From Luteitalea sp. TBR-22 (lineage in GTDB: Bacteria > Acidobacteriota > Vicinamibacteria > Vicinamibacterales > Vicinamibacteraceae): DNA of 64,000 bases. A program made the position numbers and the translations under genes. The notes under the pieces are model-generated. The model saw only the letters and a program-made list of their open reading frames with translations, did not search any database and was not told where the DNA came from. Positions 21,389 to 30,514 of this stretch are shown in pieces; positions within the stretch are counted from its first letter, which is position 1; each line of letters starts with the position of its first letter. The stretch is taken from positions 1 to 64,000 of the forward strand of contig NZ_AP024452.1 in assembly GCF_016865485.1 (NCBI RefSeq), written 5' to 3'.

Positions 21389-21896
21389 CAACGACAATCT
21401 TCCCGAAGTGTGGATGCGCGGCCCTGTCGAGGGCGTCGCGCCCGAACTGCAACCGGTTGCGCACTCGTTCCTGCAGGTGCGCGAGGAGATCGAACGATTC
21501 GCCGCCGACCTCACGCCCGCGCAGCTGTGGGCGCGGCCGGGCGGCGCCGGCTCGATCGGCTTCCACCTGCGCCACATCGCGGGCGCCACCGACCGTCTCC
21601 TCACGTACGCGCGCGACGAGGCCCTCACCGCCGAGCAACTCGCGTGGCTGAAGGCGGAGGCCGATCCTGGCGCGCCGCCAGCCGGCGCCAGGGAAACGCT
21701 GGAGGTCGCCTGTGCCGCCATCGATCGGGCGCTCGCGCAGGTGCGCGGCACCGACGTGGCCAGGTTGCTCGATGCGCGCGGCGTGGGACGGGCCAGGCTG
21801 CCCACCACGGTTCTCGGCTTGCTGTTTCATGCGGCCGAGCACGCCACGCGGCACGCCGGGCAGATTGCGACGATGCGGAAGATCGTCCTGGGCTAG
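21384..21896 (+). CDS. DinB-like four-helix metalloprotein
   Basis: This 170-residue protein fits the DinB/YfiT superfamily: IGFHLRHIAGATDRLL (about residues 53-68) and the C-terminal FHAAEHATRHAGQI supply the histidine triad of the metal site. Members include thiol-dependent S-transferases and many proteins of unknown role; the specific reaction here is unknown. The TTG start at 21384 gives the longest sensible protein; ATG 21414 is an alternative. Its stop overlaps the stop of the convergent ureohydrolase by 4 nt. Confidence 0.8.
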   Translation: MSNDNLPEVWMRGPVEGVAPELQPVAHSFLQVREEIERFAADLTPAQLWARPGGAGSIGFHLRHIAGATDRLLTYARDEALTAEQLAWLKAEADPGAPPAGARETLEVACAAIDRALAQVRGTDVARLLDARGVGRARLPTTVLGLLFHAAEHATRHAGQIATMRKIVLG

Positions 21897-22717
21897 TCGC
21901 CGAGGAGCCGCCGCCAGAGGGGTTCGAGTGCCTCCACGACGGGGGCGGGCGACACCGCCTGGCCTCCCGGGTGCCAGGCTCCCTGGAACTCGGCGATCTC
22001 GACGCCGACCACCTCGCCCTCTGCCACCGCGGTCGACAGGTCGTGCACCTGCGCGAGCGTGAGTCCGCCTGCCACCGAGTAGTCGGTCGGGACGATCCCC
22101 GGTTCGAGCACGTCGCAATCGAGGTGTACGTAGGCCGGTCGCCCCATCAGCGCGGCCCTGAGATCCTGGGCGACGCGTGAGCCGATCCTGACCACTCGGA
22201 TGCCGCTGGTCTCGATCACCTCCTGTTCGGCGGGGTCGAGGTCGCGCGTCCCGACCAGGACCACGTTGGCGAGCGCGATCCCGGCGCCGAGTCCGGAGTT
22301 CCAGAGCCCTGCCGCCCCTGCCACTGCCATGCCGCCGAGATACCCGCTGGAGGTGGTGGCCGGCGTGTTGAGGTCGGCGTGCGCGTCGAGCCACACGAGG
22401 CAGGCGTCTGGCCGGTGCCGCGCGACGATCGGCACGGTGCCCAGGGCGGCGGCGCAGCGGGTGAGTGCCGTGATCGGGGTGGCGCCCCGCGTCATCGCGC
22501 GATCGATCACCTCCGCCAGCGTCCTGAGGTCGGCCGACGCGGCGGCGAGCTCCACGTCCCACGCCGCGGCCAGCGCTGGCGCCTGGTGGCCGACGCGCGC
22601 GATGTGCACGCCGAGCCGGGTCGCGAGGTGGCCTGCCATCGCGGCCGCCCCGGGCACCGCGAGATCGTTGCGGTCGCCGGCGCGCCCCTCGTACACGGTC
22701 AGCGCGATCGAGGTCAT
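21893..22717 (-). CDS. Divergent ureohydrolase (arginase/agmatinase fold)
   Basis: The 274-residue protein has the arginase-family layout. Two of three metal motifs are intact: WLDAHADLNTP (about 128-138) and HLDCDVLEPG (about 198-207), followed by GGLTLAQVHDL and VEIAEFQGAWHPGG. The first motif, normally GGDHS with a metal-binding histidine, reads LTRCAAAL here, so the A-site histidine appears replaced by Arg/Cys. Such a protein may bind a single metal, act on another substrate or be inactive. It is last in the minus-strand set 24668-21893, 13 bp after a 61-residue protein gene. Confidence 0.75.
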   Translation of the reverse strand: MTSIALTVYEGRAGDRNDLAVPGAAAMAGHLATRLGVHIARVGHQAPALAAAWDVELAAASADLRTLAEVIDRAMTRGATPITALTRCAAALGTVPIVARHRPDACLVWLDAHADLNTPATTSSGYLGGMAVAGAAGLWNSGLGAGIALANVVLVGTRDLDPAEQEVIETSGIRVVRIGSRVAQDLRAALMGRPAYVHLDCDVLEPGIVPTDYSVAGGLTLAQVHDLSTAVAEGEVVGVEIAEFQGAWHPGGQAVSPAPVVEALEPLWRRLLGD

Positions 22718-22730
22718 GCGGCAGGTGGCG

Positions 22731-22916
22731 CTACCGGCCTGGCGTGGGCGCCGGCCGGGTGTCGTGCGGGCGGGTGAACTGGCGTGCGATGGCGTCGCGC
22801 AACGGCCGCGAGAGCGTCAGCCGCTCGAGCGTGATCGGGGCTCCGGCGCGCGACACGGTGCGCCGCTGGCTCACGGCTGCAGACGATGTGGGGGCGGGAG
22901 AGTCGCGTTGGTTCAT
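22731..22916 (-). CDS. Small protein A, paralogue of the protein at 23729-23914
   Basis: I do not recognise the family. The 61-residue product aligns without gaps to the product at 23729-23914, with 36 identical positions. The core GAPITLERLTLSRPLRDAI matches at almost every residue, and SQRR and ARQF are also shared. The N-terminal third is Ser/Ala/Pro-rich and the tail Pro-rich. There is no membrane segment and no cysteine. Its ATG lies 7 nt after the stop of the PEP-CTERM-like gene, so it is probably translated with it. Strong paralogy in one frame with both termini matched is the evidence that it is a real gene. Confidence 0.6.
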   Translation of the reverse strand: MNQRDSPAPTSSAAVSQRRTVSRAGAPITLERLTLSRPLRDAIARQFTRPHDTRPAPTPGR

Positions 22917-22923
22917 GTGGGGC

Positions 22924-23565
22924 TCAGTGTCTCCGTCGTCGTGAGCGGTGGGCGAGTGCTGCGCACAGGCTCACCTCGAGCATCGTCAGCAGTCCGGGCT
23001 CGCCGACGAGCAGTGTGCTCGCTTCTGCGCGGAACATCGGCGTTTCTCCGTCCGGATCCCAGGGCCCTGTGAGTACGAATTCCTTCCGCTCCAGGCGCGA
23101 GAGGAAGCCGAGATGCTCAGGAAGGGAGCCATCGAACACGGGGGTTCCGGCCGCCCAACTACGCGGGCTCCACAGGGACAGATACGCCCTGTCGATGCCC
23201 ATGATGTGAGGGCCGCCGACAGGTTCGAACCAGAACTCGAGGAACAGGTCGTACGGGAACACCTCGAGCCGCGAGTACGGCGCGATCCGATCGGTGAAAT
23301 CGATGCCGTCGATGGAGAAGTGCCCGGTTGGTTCGGCGCCGTCAGAGTAGTCGGGATCGAACCGACAGGAGCTGTACTCTTGCCCGTTCGCGTTGCACGG
23401 CATCGTCGGGTCCCACGTGACCTCGCCGGCAAACGTGCTATCGACCTTGCCGCCGACCGACGACAGGTCTGTCGTGCCCTTGAACCTCAGCGTGACAGGC
23501 GCGGCGGTCGCGTGACCGGCCAAGGTGCAGATGATCACGACGAGCAGCCACGAGCGCCGGCACAT
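22924..23565 (-). CDS. Secreted protein with PEP-CTERM-like sorting tail
   Basis: The 213-residue product starts with a signal peptide (MCRRSWLLVVIICTLAGHATA). Its body is beta-rich with many aromatic and acidic residues, including CNANGQEYSSCRFDPDYSDG. The C-terminal end, EPGLLTMLEVSLCAALAH followed by a run of arginines, has the Glu-Pro, hydrophobic helix and basic end of PEP-CTERM anchors that exosortase processes in exopolysaccharide-producing bacteria. No exosortase gene is in the window. AGGAGG precedes the ATG at 23565 with good spacing. The function of the body is unknown. Confidence 0.65.
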   Translation of the reverse strand: MCRRSWLLVVIICTLAGHATAAPVTLRFKGTTDLSSVGGKVDSTFAGEVTWDPTMPCNANGQEYSSCRFDPDYSDGAEPTGHFSIDGIDFTDRIAPYSRLEVFPYDLFLEFWFEPVGGPHIMGIDRAYLSLWSPRSWAAGTPVFDGSLPEHLGFLSRLERKEFVLTGPWDPDGETPMFRAEASTLLVGEPGLLTMLEVSLCAALAHRSRRRRH

Positions 23566-23728
23566 GGACCGTCCTCCTGCGATGGCCCTCGACAGGACTC
23601 CTGCGCGGTACTCGACAGGGTACTTCCGGGCACAAGCGAGCGCAACACCGCGGGAGCGGCCTGAGAAGGCGCGGGACCTGAGACACGGTGAGCGCCCGGC
23701 CCCATTGGAGGCGCCGCTCCTGGCGCGG

Positions 23729-23914
23729 CTACTGCGCGGGGGATGGAGTGGCGCGCGGGTCGGACACGCGCACGAACTGGCGGGCGATGGCGTCGCGAAT
23801 GGGGCGCGACAACGTCAGTCGTTCGAGCCGGATGGGCGCGCCGACCTGCGACACGACGCGCCGCTGGGTCACCGACGGCGACGATGACGCGGCGGACGAT
23901 TCGTTGTGGGTCAC
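23729..23914 (-). CDS. Small protein B, paralogue of the protein at 22731-22916
   Basis: This is the second 61-residue member of the pair. From GTG 23914 the product has the same length as its paralogue and shares TQRRVVSQ-type and GAPIRLERLTLSRPIRDAI segments; differences are mostly conservative (Leu/Ile, Thr/Val). gagg lies about 8 nt before the GTG. The gene begins 19 nt after the stop of the membrane GAF-like gene and is followed by a 163-bp gap before the PEP-CTERM-like gene. The family is unknown to me. A longer frame to 23965 would overlap the upstream gene and lose the length match. Confidence 0.55.
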   Translation of the reverse strand: MTHNESSAASSSPSVTQRRVVSQVGAPIRLERLTLSRPIRDAIARQFVRVSDPRATPSPAQ

Positions 23915-23933: not shown

Positions 23934-24668
23934 TCAAGCGTAGCGCTCGGCCACATAGCGCGCAACGCCGACAGCGGCGCGGAGGATCAGGTCCTGGCGG
24001 GCCTCGTTGAAGAAGCCGGGGTCGCGCGAGTCGAGGTACAGGATGCCCTCGAGGCGTCGGCCGGCGCCGAGCGGCACCGCCATCCAGCTCATGGACGCAG
24101 CGTCGACCTTGCGCGCCTGTGGCTCGGAGTACGCCCACTGCTCGACGAGGTCGCGCACGTAGGCTTCGTAGTCGGCGTCCTCACGTCGGGCGTGGTAGGC
24201 GTCGCCGGTCCGATAGACGTGTCCCGCGATGCCGCAGTGGACGGGTAGGCGACGACCCGCGGTGCGTCCGCCGCGCCCATCGCCGACGTAGTCCAGCACT
24301 TGCACGAGCTCCCGATGGTCGGCGGTGGGCACGTGCACGGTGAGCCGGAGGCCGACGCGGGCCTCCTCTCCGGCGCGATCGGATTCGACCAGGAGGGCGT
24401 GCAGGGTCATCAGGCAGCCGCGGAGTTCGTGGATCGACTCCCGCCGTGCGTCGCGGGTCCAGGCGACGCCGGCCCGCGTGATCGTGAGCGCGCAGCTCAG
24501 TAGCGCGCAGGTCGCGGCGAGCCACGCGGCCTGCGTGCGCCCGGCGGCGGCCAGGCCCGCCACCCCGGTGGTGCCGGCCAGCAGGGCGGTGCAGGCGATG
24601 AGGATGTCCCACGTCTGGCTGGCCTGGAGAATCGTGCGGGTCCAGCTCGCGCGGACTGGGATGGGCAT
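23934..24668 (-). CDS. Membrane-anchored GAF-like sensory protein
   Basis: From ATG 24668 the 244-residue protein has two hydrophobic segments near the N-terminus (about residues 14-36 and 44-66, separated by a short AAGRTQ turn), a basic/helical linker, and a C-terminal GAF-like domain. That domain ends with MSWMAVPLGAGRRLEGILYLDSRDPGFF and a final helix. No kinase, cyclase or output domain follows, so it probably signals through a partner or oligomerises. It heads the minus-strand set with the two 61-residue proteins, the PEP-CTERM-like protein and the ureohydrolase. The ligand cannot be predicted. Confidence 0.65.
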   Translation of the reverse strand: MPIPVRASWTRTILQASQTWDILIACTALLAGTTGVAGLAAAGRTQAAWLAATCALLSCALTITRAGVAWTRDARRESIHELRGCLMTLHALLVESDRAGEEARVGLRLTVHVPTADHRELVQVLDYVGDGRGGRTAGRRLPVHCGIAGHVYRTGDAYHARREDADYEAYVRDLVEQWAYSEPQARKVDAASMSWMAVPLGAGRRLEGILYLDSRDPGFFNEARQDLILRAAVGVARYVAERYA

Positions 24669-24791
24669 GGTGGAGCAGCCGACCCCGGGAGGACGGGCGG
24701 GCGGGCGAGGATCTGACGGGACGGCTGCGATGCCGCGATGCCGGGGGTGTGGAGCGTGACCCGCCACTTCGCGCGCGGCAACCGGGGCGGG

Positions 24792-24797
24792 TACACT
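24792..24797 (+). promoter_or_regulatory. -10 box of the tRNA-Ser gene
   Basis: TACACT ends 8 nt before the mature 5' end of the tRNA, so the primary transcript would have almost no 5' leader. Confidence 0.45.
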
Positions 24798-24805
24798 CAC
24801 GGGCT

Positions 24806-24895
24806 GGAGAGATGGCCGAGGGGTTTAAGGCAGCGGTCTTGAAAACCGCCGTACGGGTAACCGTACCGTGGGTTCGAATCCCACTCTCTCCGCCA
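24806..24895 (+). tRNA. tRNA-Ser (anticodon UGA)
   Basis: The acceptor strands GGAGAGA (24806-24812) and TCTCTCC (24885-24891) pair fully, followed by discriminator G and an encoded CCA (24893-24895). The anticodon arm GCGGT-CTTGAAA-ACCGC gives anticodon TGA. A long variable arm, GTACGGGTAACCGTAC, identifies a class II tRNA. The T arm GTGGG-TTCGAAT-CCCAC is canonical. The total of 90 nt fits tRNA-Ser. Confidence 0.97.
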
Positions 24896-24916: not shown

Positions 24917-25002
24917 GGCGGAGAGAGCCGTCTTCAGGCTCGCGGCCACTCGCCTGCGGCTCGTGCCCGCGAGCTCGAATCCCACTCTGGCGCTGGATCG
25001 TG

Positions 25003-25665
25003 AGCATCTCGGCAGAGGCCGTCGGCTTGGCCTCGGCCCGTGCGTCTCGGGCATGGCCTCAGGGCTGGCGCTCGTGGGTCGAGAGCATCTCGGCAGAGGC
25101 CGTCGGCTTCGCCTCGGCTGTGCGTCTCGGGCACGGCCTCAGGGCTGGCGCTCGTGGGTCGTGAGCATCTCGGCAGAGGCCGTCGGCTTGGCCTCGGCCC
25201 GTGCGTCTCGGGCACGGCCTCAGGGCTGGCGCTCGTGGGTCGCCAGCATCTCGGCAGAGGCCGTCGGCTTGGCCTCGGCCCGTGCGTCTCGGGCATGGCC
25301 TCAGGGGCTGGCGCTCGTGGTCGCCAGCATCTCGGCAGAGGCCGTCGGCTTGGCCTCGGCCCGTGCGTCTCGGGCACGGCCTCAGGGCTGGCGCTCGTGG
25401 GTCGCCAGCATCTCGGCAGAGGCCGTCGGCTTGGCCTCGGCCCGTGCGTCTCGGGCATGGCCTCAGGGGCTGGCGCTCGTGGGTCGTGAGCATCTCGGCA
25501 GAGGCCGTCGGCTTGGCCTCGGCGCGTGCGTCTCGGGCATGGCCTCAGGGCTGGCGCTCGTGGGTCGTGAGCATCTCGGCAGAGGCCGTCGGCTTCGCCT
25601 CGGCTTGTGCGTCTCGGGCACGGCCTCAGGGCTGGGCTCTGGTTGGTCGCATCTCGGCAGGGGGG
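25003..25665. repeat. 81-bp minisatellite, 8 full units plus a partial ninth
   Basis: Units begin with agcatctcggcagaggc at 25003, 25084, 25164, 25245, 25326, 25407, 25489 and 25570, with a degraded ninth at about 25648. The period is 80-82 bp, mostly 81. Within each unit GAGGCC and GGCCTC form a stem around gtcggctt. Units differ by a few substitutions and single-base indels (for example tcagggct/tcaggggct). Indels shift every reading frame, so it is not a clean repeat protein. The remaining stretch from the tRNA to the next gene (24917-25002 and 25666-25709) shows no gene; it includes a 14-nt copy of the tRNA T-arm at 24975-24988. Confidence 0.93.
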
Positions 25666-25709
25666 CCTGGGCTTCGATCTCTGGCGGCGCGTTTGCATCT
25701 CTTCCGCGC

Positions 25710-26366
25710 GTGCGTGCGTCAACGGATGACCTGCTGGTGTCGCTCTGTGCCCGGTTTCTCGAGGCGCAGTTGAAGGGGGACCGTCGACGCGCCGTGCGGT
25801 TGTTGATGGAGCAGGGCCTCGACACCGGGCTGTCGGCGACCGACCTGTTGCTGCGGGTCATCACGCCGGCACAACGCGAGATCGGGCGGCTCTGGGAGGC
25901 CAACGCGGTGTCGGTCGCAGACGAGCACGTCGCCACCGCCATCAGTCAACTGGCGATGTCACACCTGTACGGCCGAGCGTTGCCGACGGACATCCGCCGG
26001 GAGCACGTCCTTGTCGCGTGTGTCGACGGCGAGTGGCACGACATGGGGGCGCGCGTCGCGGCAGATGTCCTCGAGCATCATGGCTTCTCGGTCAGGCTGC
26101 TGGGCCCCAGTGTTCCGGTCGACGCCCTCCTCGAGCGCGTCGCCAGCGAGGCGCCCGACATCGTCCTCCTCTCCATGACCATGGACGTGCACGCGCCGGC
26201 CCTCACGACGGCAGTCCGCGCCCTGAAGGCTCGCTTTCCGAACCTGCCTGTCCTGGTGGGCGGGCGGGGGTGTGCCGATCGCAACCTCGCCGAGTACGGC
26301 CTGCCTCACCTCACGGCGCCGCGCGCCGCAGTCTGCGCGGAGATCGAGCGACTGCTCGACGCCTGA
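25710..26366 (+). CDS. Cobalamin (B12)-binding domain protein
   Basis: This 218-residue protein combines an N-terminal helical cap (B12-binding-2 type: FLEAQLKGDRRRAVRLLMEQGL, then PAQREIGRLWEANAVSVADEHVATAISQ) with a Rossmann-like B12-binding domain. The cobalt-ligand motif DxHxxG appears as EWHDMG with H110. GPSVPVDALLERV and PDIVLLSMTMDVHAP follow, with VLVGGRGC later. There is no DNA-binding or catalytic domain, so it resembles stand-alone B12 sensor or corrinoid proteins. The GTG at 25710 is chosen because upstream sequence is the minisatellite; other starts are possible. Two sensor kinases lie just downstream, suggesting a sensory role, possibly light or corrinoid sensing (inference). 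Confidence 0.8.
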   Translation: MRASTDDLLVSLCARFLEAQLKGDRRRAVRLLMEQGLDTGLSATDLLLRVITPAQREIGRLWEANAVSVADEHVATAISQLAMSHLYGRALPTDIRREHVLVACVDGEWHDMGARVAADVLEHHGFSVRLLGPSVPVDALLERVASEAPDIVLLSMTMDVHAPALTTAVRALKARFPNLPVLVGGRGCADRNLAEYGLPHLTAPRAAVCAEIERLLDA

Positions 26367-26511
26367 ACACGGGCCTCCGCAGAGACTGCATCCGCGACGC
26401 CGCTGTTCGGTTCCGCTACAGCTGTCGCCTTTTCTTGGCGTCCCCCGAGAGCGTACGGGAAAGCGGTCCGTCCAGGCGGTCTGGCATCCGGCTTGCTCCC
26501 TTGCAGTTGGA

Positions 26512-28569
26512 ATGCGCGGCGAACCAGGGGGACGCGAGGCACCCGACATCAGCGCCCTCAGGCGCGAGGCCTCGCTGCTCTGCGACGCCACGGGACGGGT
26601 GACATGGGCCGACGACTCGGCCGCTCGCGTGCTCGGCATCGCTCCCGGCGACATCCTCACGACGCACGCCGTGCCAGGTACGGAAGCCAAGCTGGCGCGC
26701 CTGCTCGACGAGGCGACGCGCGGACCGATCAAGGACTATGAGATCTGCCTGATGGTCGCCGGGGCGCCACGCACGGTGCTTTGCTCGGTCTTCGACTACC
26801 CCGGGCAGCGCCTCCTCTTGGTCGGCAGTCTCGTCCCGGAGCAGTACAGCCGCATGGTGAGTCAGGTCAGCCAGGCGGTGGCCGAGCTCGGCGAACTGCA
26901 GCGGCAGTCCGATCGGCAGCAGCGGGAACTGCAGCGCCGACACGACGACCTCGCGCGACTCAACGTCGAGCTCGACGACTCGGCACGCGGCATGGCCGCG
27001 CTGCACGCGGAGGTGCAGGAGAACGCCGACTCGCTCCGGCGCCTCTCCGAGGTGAAGTCGCGCGTCGTCTCCAACGTGAGCCACGAGTTCCGCACCCCGC
27101 TGAACTCGATCATCGGACTGACCAACATCCTGCTGTCGCGTGTCGATGGCGAGCTGTCGCCCGAGCAGGAGAAGCAGATCACGTTCATCCGGCGTTCCGC
27201 CGAGAGCCTCACCGAGTTGGTGAACGACCTGCTCGACCTCTCCAGCATCGAGGCCGGCAAGGTGGCGTTCCGGCCGACACGCTTCACCGTCGCCTCACTG
27301 TTCGGCGCCTTGCGGGGCATGCTGCGGCCACTGGTCGCCCCCCCGTCCCCCGAGGTGACCTTCGAGACCCCCGACGAGGAGGTCGCGCTCGAGACCGACG
27401 AGGGCAAGGTGTCGCAGATCATGCGCAACCTGCTCTCCAATGCGATCAAGTTCGCGCCCGAGGGCGACGTGCGGGTGCAGGTGCGCGCCGAGGGCGACGA
27501 GGTGGTGTTCGCCGTGGCCGACTCGGGCATCGGCATCGCCCCCGAAGATCACGAGCGCGTGTTCGAGGAGTTCACGCAGCTGGACAATCCGATCCAGCGC
27601 CGCGTCAAGGGCACCGGCCTCGGCCTCGCGCTGTCACGGCGCCTGGCGGGCATCCTCGGCGGCACCCTCGTCGTGGCCAGCTCGGCGCCCGGCGAGGGCA
27701 CCACGTTCGAGCTGCGCATCCCGCGCGTCCATCCCGAAGTCACCGAGATGGCGGCGATGGAGGAGCGCAGCCGCGCTCTCGATCCCCGCCGCGCGCCGAT
27801 CCTCGTGCTCGAGGACGACCGCCAGACGCTCTTCCTCTACGAACGCTACCTGCGCGACGCCGGCTTCCAGATCGTGCCGGCCCGCACCATCGACGACGCG
27901 CGAGAGGCGATGCGACGGATGCGCCCGGCCGCCATCGTCCTCGACGTGATGCTCGAGGGCGAGACCTCCTGGGCTTTCCTCGCCGAGCTGAAGGCCTCGC
28001 CCGACACGCGCGACATCCCCGCGCTCGTGGTGACCATCACCAACCGGGAGGATCGCGCCCGGGCGCTCGGCGCCGACGAGTTCTTCGTCAAGCCGCTCGA
28101 TCAGGAGTGGATCGCCCGCAAGCTCCAGCAACTGGCGCATCGCTCCGGGCCCATTCGCACCGTCCTGGTCGTCGACGACGACGAGGTCGCGCGGTACATG
28201 CTGCGTCGGCAACTGGCCGACAGCGAGTACCGGATCATCGAGGCGGCCGACGGCATCGAGGGCCTGCGCCTGGCGCAGCTCGAGCGGCCGCAGGTCATCT
28301 TCCTGGACTTCGTGCTGCCGGGCACCAACGCCTTCGACCTGCTCGACGACCTGAAGGCCAACCCGGCCACCCGCAACATCCCCGTGATCATCCACACGTC
28401 CAAGTCGCTGGCCGACGAGGAGAAGTCGCGCCTCTCGCAGCAGGCCGCGGCCATCCTCCCGAAACAGAGCCTGTCGCGCGAGGTGGCCATCGCCCGCATC
28501 CGTGATGCGCTCGTGGCCGCAGGGCTGAGGCCCGAGGCCCAGGACCGGGAGGCGAGCCGTGCGGGCTGA
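26512..28569 (+). CDS. Hybrid sensor histidine kinase (PAS-like, HisKA, HATPase, REC, REC)
   Basis: From ATG 26512 the product has 685 residues. A PAS-like domain (about 15-105) is followed by a coiled coil (about 120-185) and HisKA with SNVSHEFRTPLNSIIG (H191). The HATPase domain shows NLLSNAIKFAP and GTGLGLALSR. Two receiver domains follow: the first with VLEDD and phospho-acceptor D478 and VKPLD, the second with VVDDDE and D599. There are no membrane segments, so it is cytoplasmic. It ends by overlapping the next kinase gene by 11 bp. No separate response regulator with an output domain is adjacent, so the output is unknown. Confidence 0.9.
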   Translation: MRGEPGGREAPDISALRREASLLCDATGRVTWADDSAARVLGIAPGDILTTHAVPGTEAKLARLLDEATRGPIKDYEICLMVAGAPRTVLCSVFDYPGQRLLLVGSLVPEQYSRMVSQVSQAVAELGELQRQSDRQQRELQRRHDDLARLNVELDDSARGMAALHAEVQENADSLRRLSEVKSRVVSNVSHEFRTPLNSIIGLTNILLSRVDGELSPEQEKQITFIRRSAESLTELVNDLLDLSSIEAGKVAFRPTRFTVASLFGALRGMLRPLVAPPSPEVTFETPDEEVALETDEGKVSQIMRNLLSNAIKFAPEGDVRVQVRAEGDEVVFAVADSGIGIAPEDHERVFEEFTQLDNPIQRRVKGTGLGLALSRRLAGILGGTLVVASSAPGEGTTFELRIPRVHPEVTEMAAMEERSRALDPRRAPILVLEDDRQTLFLYERYLRDAGFQIVPARTIDDAREAMRRMRPAAIVLDVMLEGETSWAFLAELKASPDTRDIPALVVTITNREDRARALGADEFFVKPLDQEWIARKLQQLAHRSGPIRTVLVVDDDEVARYMLRRQLADSEYRIIEAADGIEGLRLAQLERPQVIFLDFVLPGTNAFDLLDDLKANPATRNIPVIIHTSKSLADEEKSRLSQQAAAILPKQSLSREVAIARIRDALVAAGLRPEAQDREASRAG

Positions 28570-30514
28570 TCGGTCCGGGGTGATCCTCAACGTCAACGAC
28601 GACGAGGCGACGCGGTACGTGCTCAGCCGGACGCTGCGGCGCGCCGGGTACGACGTGCGCGAGGCGTCGTCGGGATACGAGGCGCTGATGCTGGCCCGCG
28701 AAGGCCCGCGCCTCATCGTGCTCGACATCAAGCTGCCCGACCTCGACGGCCTCGAGGTGTGTCGCCGCCTGAAGGCCGACCCGCGCACCGCGACGATCCC
28801 GGTGTTGCAGACGTCGGCCACCTTCGTGTCGGCGGCGCGCAAGGCGCAGGGCCTCGACAGCGGCGCCGACGGCTACCTCGTGCAGCCGGTCGAGCCCGCC
28901 GAGCTCATCGCCACCGTGCGCGCGCTGCTGCGGGCCCAGGATGCCGAGGCCAACCTCCGCGAAGCCGGCCTGGAGTGGCAGCGCACGTTCAACGCGATCG
29001 CCGAGTCGGCGGCGGTGCTGCGCGCCGACGGCACCATCCTGCGCACCAACCGCGCGCTGCTGGCCCTCGTCCGCGCCTCTGCCGAAGAGGTCGACGGACG
29101 TCCCGTGCGCGAGGTCTTCCGACAGCGCCTCGGCATCGACGACCCCATCCTCGAACTCGAGGCGGGCAACCTCGAGCGACGGGTCGCCGAGGTCCGTGCC
29201 GGCGACTGCTCGTACCGCATCGTCACCGACCCGATCCTCGACGAGCGCGGGCACGCCCATCGCCACGTGCTGGTGATGACCGACATCACCAGCCTGCGCG
29301 ACCTCGCCGACGCCGAGCGCCGGCGCGCCGACGAACTGCTCGAGGACAACCGCCGCAAGGACGAGTTCCTGGCGATGCTTGCCCACGAACTGCGCAACCC
29401 GCTCAACGCCATCGCCACGGCCACGGCGCTGCAGGACCGCACCGACGTGCCGGAGGAACACCTCGGCCACGTGCGCGCCTCGGTGGCGCGGCAGGTGCGA
29501 CAGCTCTCGCGCCTGATCGACGACCTGCTCGACGTGTCGCGCCTGACGCGCGGTCGCGTCCAGCTGCAGAAGGACAGCCTCGATCTCTCGTCGGTCATCC
29601 ACGAGGTGGTCCAGATGGCGCGGCCGTACCTCGATGCGCGTCGGCAGCCGCTGATCCTCGACCTGCCGGATTCGCCGCTGCCCGTGCACGGCGACAGCCT
29701 GCGCCTGGGGCAGGCGCTGGCCAACCTCCTGTCGAACGCGAGCAAGTTCTCCGAGGTCGGCCGGCGCATCCTGCTCCGCTGCGAGATCGATCGGGCCGAC
29801 GAGGCGCACCCGGTGGTGACGATCCGGGTCGTCGACGAGGGGATCGGCATCGATCCGGCGCGCATCGACAGCATCTTCGAGCCGTTCGTGCAGGGCCAGA
29901 CGACGCTGGCGCGATCGGAGGGCGGCCTGGGCATCGGCCTCACCATCGCCAAGCGGATGGTCGAGCTGCACGAAGGTCAGCTCACCGCTCACAGCGCGGG
30001 CCTCGGTGCCGGCACGGAGTTCCGCGTGACGCTCCCCCTGGCGCCTCTGAACCTGGCAACTCCGCCGCAGGCGACCGCCCTCGACAGCTACCTCCGCGAT
30101 TACCGCCCGCCCGCACTGCTCGACGTCCTCATCGTCGAGGACGACGAGGACGCCGCCGATCTCATGCGCGCGCTCTTCACCGCGGTCGGTCACACCACCC
30201 GCGTCGCCCGCGACGGCATCGCCGGCCTGACCGAAGTGCTGTCGCATCCCCCGGATGTCGCCTTCATCGACATCGGGCTGCCGCGCATGGACGGCTACGA
30301 AGTGGCGCGGACCATCCGGCGCTCCGACCAGGGCGGCTCGGTCTACCTCGTGGCCCTCACCGGGTATGGCCGTCCCGAGGACCGGGCCCGGGCGCTGGCG
30401 GCCGGTTTCGACGTGCACCTGGTCAAGCCGCTGGAGATCCAGCGCGTCCACGAACTCATGGAGCGGCGCCAGCATCGCGTCATCACCCACGACGAGGCCC
30501 CGGGGACGCATTAG
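28559..30514 (+). CDS. Hybrid sensor histidine kinase (REC, PAS, HisKA, HATPase, REC)
   Basis: This is a 651-residue cytoplasmic kinase. An N-terminal receiver (NDDEATRY, D56 in IVLDIKLPDLDG) precedes a PAS domain (about 140-245). HisKA follows with MLAHELRNPLNAIA (H276), then HATPase with NLLSNASKFSE and GGLGIGLTIAKRM. A C-terminal receiver has VEDDED and D571 in FIDIGLPRMDGYE. GTG 28559 overlaps the upstream kinase gene by 11 bp and has gggagg before it, so the pair is co-translated. Receivers at both ends suggest phosphorelay with the neighbouring kinase. No HPt or output domain is seen. Confidence 0.9.
   Translation: MRADRSGVILNVNDDEATRYVLSRTLRRAGYDVREASSGYEALMLAREGPRLIVLDIKLPDLDGLEVCRRLKADPRTATIPVLQTSATFVSAARKAQGLDSGADGYLVQPVEPAELIATVRALLRAQDAEANLREAGLEWQRTFNAIAESAAVLRADGTILRTNRALLALVRASAEEVDGRPVREVFRQRLGIDDPILELEAGNLERRVAEVRAGDCSYRIVTDPILDERGHAHRHVLVMTDITSLRDLADAERRRADELLEDNRRKDEFLAMLAHELRNPLNAIATATALQDRTDVPEEHLGHVRASVARQVRQLSRLIDDLLDVSRLTRGRVQLQKDSLDLSSVIHEVVQMARPYLDARRQPLILDLPDSPLPVHGDSLRLGQALANLLSNASKFSEVGRRILLRCEIDRADEAHPVVTIRVVDEGIGIDPARIDSIFEPFVQGQTTLARSEGGLGIGLTIAKRMVELHEGQLTAHSAGLGAGTEFRVTLPLAPLNLATPPQATALDSYLRDYRPPALLDVLIVEDDEDAADLMRALFTAVGHTTRVARDGIAGLTEVLSHPPDVAFIDIGLPRMDGYEVARTIRRSDQGGSVYLVALTGYGRPEDRARALAAGFDVHLVKPLEIQRVHELMERRQHRVITHDEAPGTH

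Follow-up and report, generated by a model that had tools for sequence, protein, structure and literature searches.

A genus-restricted family of small protein genes, present in two copies around a PEP-CTERM-like gene in Luteitalea sp. TBR-22

Background

Two kinds of described system come closest to the locus reported here. Lineage-restricted (orphan) small proteins encoded in operons are short, match no profile, are limited to one genus and are co-directional with larger genes: the small protein described below resembles them in all these traits, and is unlike them in being duplicated around another gene. In the peptide-arginase RiPP systems (OspR, FlmR, OhkR), a ureohydrolase is found beside duplicated small ORFs containing Arg, an arrangement that recurs here; the locus differs from these systems in the family and motifs of its ureohydrolase, in the absence of the precursor anatomy and in that no maturase is recognised among the five genes scanned. 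A further likeness, to the enzyme of solved structure 6lug, belongs to the neighbouring ureohydrolase and not to the small protein.

The locus is located in Luteitalea sp. TBR-22, whose published chromosome is 6,468,984 bases long (PMC8852301). The window, which is the whole stretch of 64,000 nucleotides analysed, corresponds to bases 1-64000 of a single 6,468,984-base contig. The TBR-22 genome is indicated as G000, and another genome of the genus Luteitalea as G004.

Results

Five genes on one strand

The two copies of the small gene, A and B, are part of a row of five genes, listed below in the order of transcription.

23934-24668, minus strand: membrane GAF protein, 244 aa, with a hydrophobic N-terminal part followed by a GAF domain (Pfam GAF)
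23729-23914, minus strand: small protein copy B, 61 aa, GTG to TAG, 19 nt behind the GAF gene; homologue C in G004
22924-23565, minus strand: PEP-CTERM-like protein, 213 aa, between B (gap of 163 nt) and A; C-terminus VGEPG...RRRRH
22731-22916, minus strand: small protein copy A, 61 aa, ATG to TAG, 7 nt behind the PEP-CTERM-like gene and 13 nt before the ureohydrolase gene
21893-22717, minus strand: ureohydrolase, 274 aa, nearest to N-omega-hydroxy-L-arginine amidinohydrolase (Pfam Arginase, 81.8 bits; 6lug, E = 2.1e-52)

The common strand, and the short gaps that precede A and B, are as the initial annotation had described them. Neither a sigma-70-type promoter nor a terminator-like site was found, which says little at 70% GC.

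The GAF domain scores 25.4 bits in Pfam, versus a cut-off of 22.4, when scanned on the longer frame 23934-24800; no second domain is recognised by Pfam. The most hydrophobic 19-residue stretch of this protein reaches 1.93, its predicted model is poor (mean pLDDT 38.6), and 196 of its 244 residues are identical in G004. The PEP-CTERM-like protein stays below the cut-off of all PEP-CTERM models of NCBIfam, the best being THxN (E = 0.054); its homologue in G004 ends in VPEPG...RRRGARRR.

Beside the row, a tRNA-Ser(TGA) gene (24806-24895) is found, and just behind it an 81-nt tandem array (24994-25660; 8.3 copies, 94% matches), through which long frames are open on both strands. A two-unit query of this array matches only within 24994-25676 of its own genome, with no match in G001, a further genome considered below, or in G004. 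Large frames, which by eye resemble sensor kinases and response regulators, occupy positions 26272-30514 and separate the tRNA from the next shared gene; in the G004 contig, the tRNA-Ser almost directly adjoins the shared gene that follows them in the window.

A third copy and its neighbours

G004 contains a single copy of the small gene, C, coding for 68 aa in an intact frame: a homologue in a related genome, with its frame open, is thus available. C starts 23 nt behind the homologue of the GAF gene and, at its end, overlaps the homologue of the ureohydrolase gene by ATGA; the latter homologue is cut off by the contig end. The neighbours flanking the small gene are therefore conserved. The PEP-CTERM-like homologue of G004 is located on a different contig, where it is followed by a convergent frame, by eye a hybrid histidine kinase, and where a profile search finds no small gene beside it. 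The order GAF, small gene, ureohydrolase is the common one, and the presence of the PEP-CTERM-like gene between two copies is peculiar to the window among the genomes seen. The initial annotation, which had treated the row as one gene set with a link to PEP-CTERM and secretion, stands for the GAF gene, the small gene and the ureohydrolase gene; the PEP-CTERM part of it is not borne out, and this neighbour looks incidental.

The distribution of the neighbours was compared in 193 genomes of the class. The PEP-CTERM-like gene is found in G000 and G004 only; the GAF gene is found in the same two genomes, and a long frame of G066 contains a weak match to it (E = 9e-6, 42 residues); bar this one match, its distribution is that of the small gene. 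The ureohydrolase is more widespread: matches are present in 15 of 60 genomes and, at E <= 1e-20, in 8 of 396 genomes of the phylum. Besides G000, it is found at 56-57% identity in G001 and G004, all other matches, in both sets, being far weaker. In G001 (7,480,314 bases), the ureohydrolase gene lies beside the same tRNA-Ser, with neither the GAF gene nor the small gene between them, and no small-gene remnant was seen by eye, in three frames, between tRNA and enzyme: the enzyme, then, is not always accompanied by the small protein. The tRNA-Ser of G001 (L046 9598-9687) is inverted relative to its otherwise collinear surroundings.

Searches for further members

The A/B/C profile, at E <= 0.001, finds only G000 and G004 in the 193 class genomes, among the best candidates (up to 33) scored per genome; at E <= 0.01, the best candidates (up to 16) per genome in the 396 phylum genomes again comprise G000 and G004, along with ten weak matches (E = 0.002-0.009), three of which contain internal stops. 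With such ceilings, both runs could overlook a relative that has diverged very far. The small gene is absent from G001, G002 and G003. B alone, searched at E <= 0.1 in 60 genomes, its own included, has matches in 17: G000, G004 and 15 weak ones. With the reversed sequence as a control, 17 of the 60 genomes have weak matches, about as many as the real sequence outside G000 and G004; the weak matches to B therefore look like background. No GAF or ureohydrolase protein was found near the weak matches by tblastn (E <= 1e-3; flanks up to 1.5 kb) at 29 loci, three of which are from TBR-22 itself, weak matches lacking a locus being left out.

Against 84,980 species genomes, B alone gives nothing confirmed, and the profile finds the G004 contig and one Labrys locus. 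The latter was taken as a chance match: its frame overlaps, in another phase, a frame of 512 codons, and does not include the GAPI-x-LERLT part. The small protein has no match in plasmids and viral contigs, nor does the profile match any solved structure at E <= 10. Among the genomes searched, the family appears confined to two genomes of one genus.

The profile libraries were equally negative: A and B match no family in Pfam, NCBIfam, PADLOC and PHROGs, and C matches none in NCBIfam, PADLOC and PHROGs. By these four libraries the small protein is undescribed. The earlier suggestion of an undescribed small-protein system is thus retained as regards a duplicated coding unit, and is narrowed in breadth to two genomes of one genus.

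Coding potential and constraint

Neither A nor B contains internal stops. In a gapless alignment, they share 36 of the 60 residues past the start codon, a number never reached when the residues of B are shuffled 100,000 times (best shuffle: 17), which bears out the claim of two matching 61-residue frames. With A as a query against its own genome, B is found at E = 4.5e-17, and the next match at E = 0.087. DNA similarity between the two copies is concentrated in the ORF and drops at its ends: successive 30-nt blocks within the ORF feature 19, 22, 22, 22, 24 and 15 identical positions, versus 11 and 11 in the blocks upstream and 14 and 7 in those downstream.

The dN/dS ratio is 0.47 for A-B, hence below 1 rather than near it, 0.62 for A-C and 0.50 for B-C. 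A null which ignores codon position, and keeps the changes, reaches the observed ratio in 16 (A-B), 204 (A-C) and 12 (B-C) of 5000 replicates. In the core, residues kept in the annotated frame are 28, 24 and 21 of 36 (A-B, A-C and B-C, respectively), versus 24, 20 and 16 of 35 in the best alternative frame, which is antisense. For A and B alone, one antisense frame is equivalent to the annotated one (pN/pS 0.59 versus 0.58), so that the strand call depends on those comparisons that include C, on start and stop codons, on the place in the operon and on GC at the three codon positions, which is highest at position 3 (0.81-0.89) in the small genes. Between G000 and G004, the neighbours have dN/dS ratios of 0.19 (GAF), 0.33 (PEP-CTERM-like) and 0.43 (ureohydrolase): the small gene appears to be under constraint, but a loose one, looser than that of all three. 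In our judgement, drawn from three sequences, it is a real gene, though a loosely constrained one.

Features of the small protein

Invariant residues of A, B and C bunch in one central block, at about residues 15-47: its conserved middle reads GAPI-[RT]-LERLT-[LI]-S, followed by a short helix ending in AI-x-RQF. The predicted model, of low confidence (mean pLDDT 64.9), consists of a single helix at residues 37-47, the rest being unstructured. One conserved central block in an otherwise unstructured chain is, as far as the model goes, what a short docking segment would look like. Net charge is +7 in A and +5 in B, both basic, and +1 in the nearly neutral C; Arg residues are 11, 9 and 9 in A, B and C. 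The highest mean hydropathy over 19 residues is 0.21, 0.22 and 0.40, respectively: by this measure none of the three features a hydrophobic segment, a result with which leader types devoid of such a segment remain compatible. Secretion of the small protein does not find support here.

The ureohydrolase

The gene closing the row had been annotated as a divergent ureohydrolase. Its nature is confirmed, and its assignment may be refined: the closest solved structure is the N-omega-hydroxy-L-arginine amidinohydrolase 6lug, while the best arginase scores E = 3.6e-23. The alignment with 6lug spans residues 4-247, including the cysteine, DxHxD and DxDVLEPG stretches, and the Cys aligned with that of 6lug is kept in G000, G001 and G004. 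In arginases, a metal-binding His occupies the position of this cysteine. By sequence, the enzyme thus appears closest to an N-omega-hydroxy-L-arginine amidinohydrolase, over ordinary arginases. We take 6lug to be DcsB, of the D-cycloserine pathway. PMC10214352 reports, for DcsA and B, hydroxyurea made from L-arginine. No gene of the NO-synthase family is found in G000, G001 and G004, so that it is not evident where hydroxyarginine would come from in these three genomes. A Pfam scan of the ureohydrolase up to E = 10 lists only Arginase (PF00491) and YlxR, PF12640 not being listed, and the peptide-arginase motifs given in PMC12703449 are absent from its sequence.

History of the duplication

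Synonymous divergence is 0.67 for A-B, 0.77 for A-C and 0.92 for B-C, and 0.64 for the GAF genes of G000 and G004. Since the A-B value is close to the GAF one, the duplication is about as old as the split between the two genomes, which it may have preceded or followed. Where A and B are compared with C, 20 sites of C match A only, 19 match B only and 14 match neither. By halves, the 5' part has 10 sites shared with A and 12 with B, the 3' part 10 and 7: an origin of C as a hybrid, 5' from B and 3' from A, was considered, and these counts form a slight trend which decides nothing.

The order GAF, small gene, hydrolase may be the older one. The PEP-CTERM-like gene would have entered later, in the TBR-22 lineage, each half of the split set keeping one copy of the small gene: GAF with B, and A with the hydrolase.

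Discussion

It is nearly certain that the small genes form a genus-restricted family, whose member C is single, between a GAF gene and a hydrolase gene, and which in the window is present in two copies around the PEP-CTERM-like gene. What the product does may be read in different ways. The ATGA overlap in G004, and the 13 nt which separate A from the ureohydrolase gene, would suit a translated spacer or leader, whose translation re-initiates or regulates that of the next gene, while the peptide itself matters little. Constraint, however, acts at the protein level and is focused in the central block, B is 163 nt away from the next gene, and the enzyme gene of G001 does without a small ORF: this explanation is rather unlikely. 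The same loose constraint and high divergence, together with the presence in two genomes only and the absence from G001, G002 and G003, could indicate a young orphan ORF that is weakly constrained and drifts, its function being slight or nil. Yet the null blind to codon position rarely gets to the ratios that A-B and B-C show, less clearly so for A-C, and both copies remain open, which makes such an ORF plainly unlikely.

Size, the positive charge of A and B and, by eye, a possible strand followed by a helix in the core recall small transcription regulators, or antitoxin-like proteins, binding DNA or a toxin. The nearly neutral C, the lack of matches to profiles, PADLOC included, and a model with one helix and no fold do not agree with this, nor did the scan of the five genes bring up a toxin; a regulator or antitoxin is accordingly judged decidedly improbable. 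The last alternative is a precursor whose Arg residues are modified by the ureohydrolase, in the style of peptide-arginase RiPPs. All three copies contain Arg, the small gene is coupled to a ureohydrolase gene, and PMC12703449 describes duplicate precursors for FlmR and OhkR. The enzyme, however, falls in PF00491, outside the peptide-arginase family, and is nearest to one named for free hydroxyarginine; G001 has the enzyme without the small gene, and conservation is central, rather than arranged as a leader and a variable core. The peptide precursor proposed by the initial annotation is thus disfavoured, to the point of being highly improbable.

Of the options put forward there, partners of their neighbours is, we infer, the likeliest. 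The small protein may be a soluble, mostly unfolded chain, as its predicted model suggests, whose conserved middle would dock on a partner, thereby passing on or tuning the signal of that partner. This partner would most likely be the GAF sensor, whose gene comes just ahead. The GAF protein is the likeliest partner because no other domain is recognised in it, because it occurs where the small gene does, and because its gene immediately precedes B and C; against this, copy A sits behind the PEP-CTERM-like gene and not behind the GAF gene. As a whole, mechanism included, a genus-restricted family of docking proteins is proposed tentatively, with less than even confidence. A more specific version, in which a genus-specific adaptor joins the GAF sensor to the amidinohydrolase, and was duplicated as the PEP-CTERM-like gene split the operon, so that each part kept a copy, is quite unlikely.

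If the small protein is such an adaptor, the locus would be a small signalling module caught in the middle of its rewiring, where a newly arisen protein attached to a sensor and was then duplicated to serve the two parts of an operon that had been split. If not, an ordinary case remains: another small gene limited to one genus, with a mildly interesting duplication history. A possibly more useful by-product is the neighbouring enzyme, which appears to resemble a hydroxyarginine hydrolase rather than an ordinary arginase.
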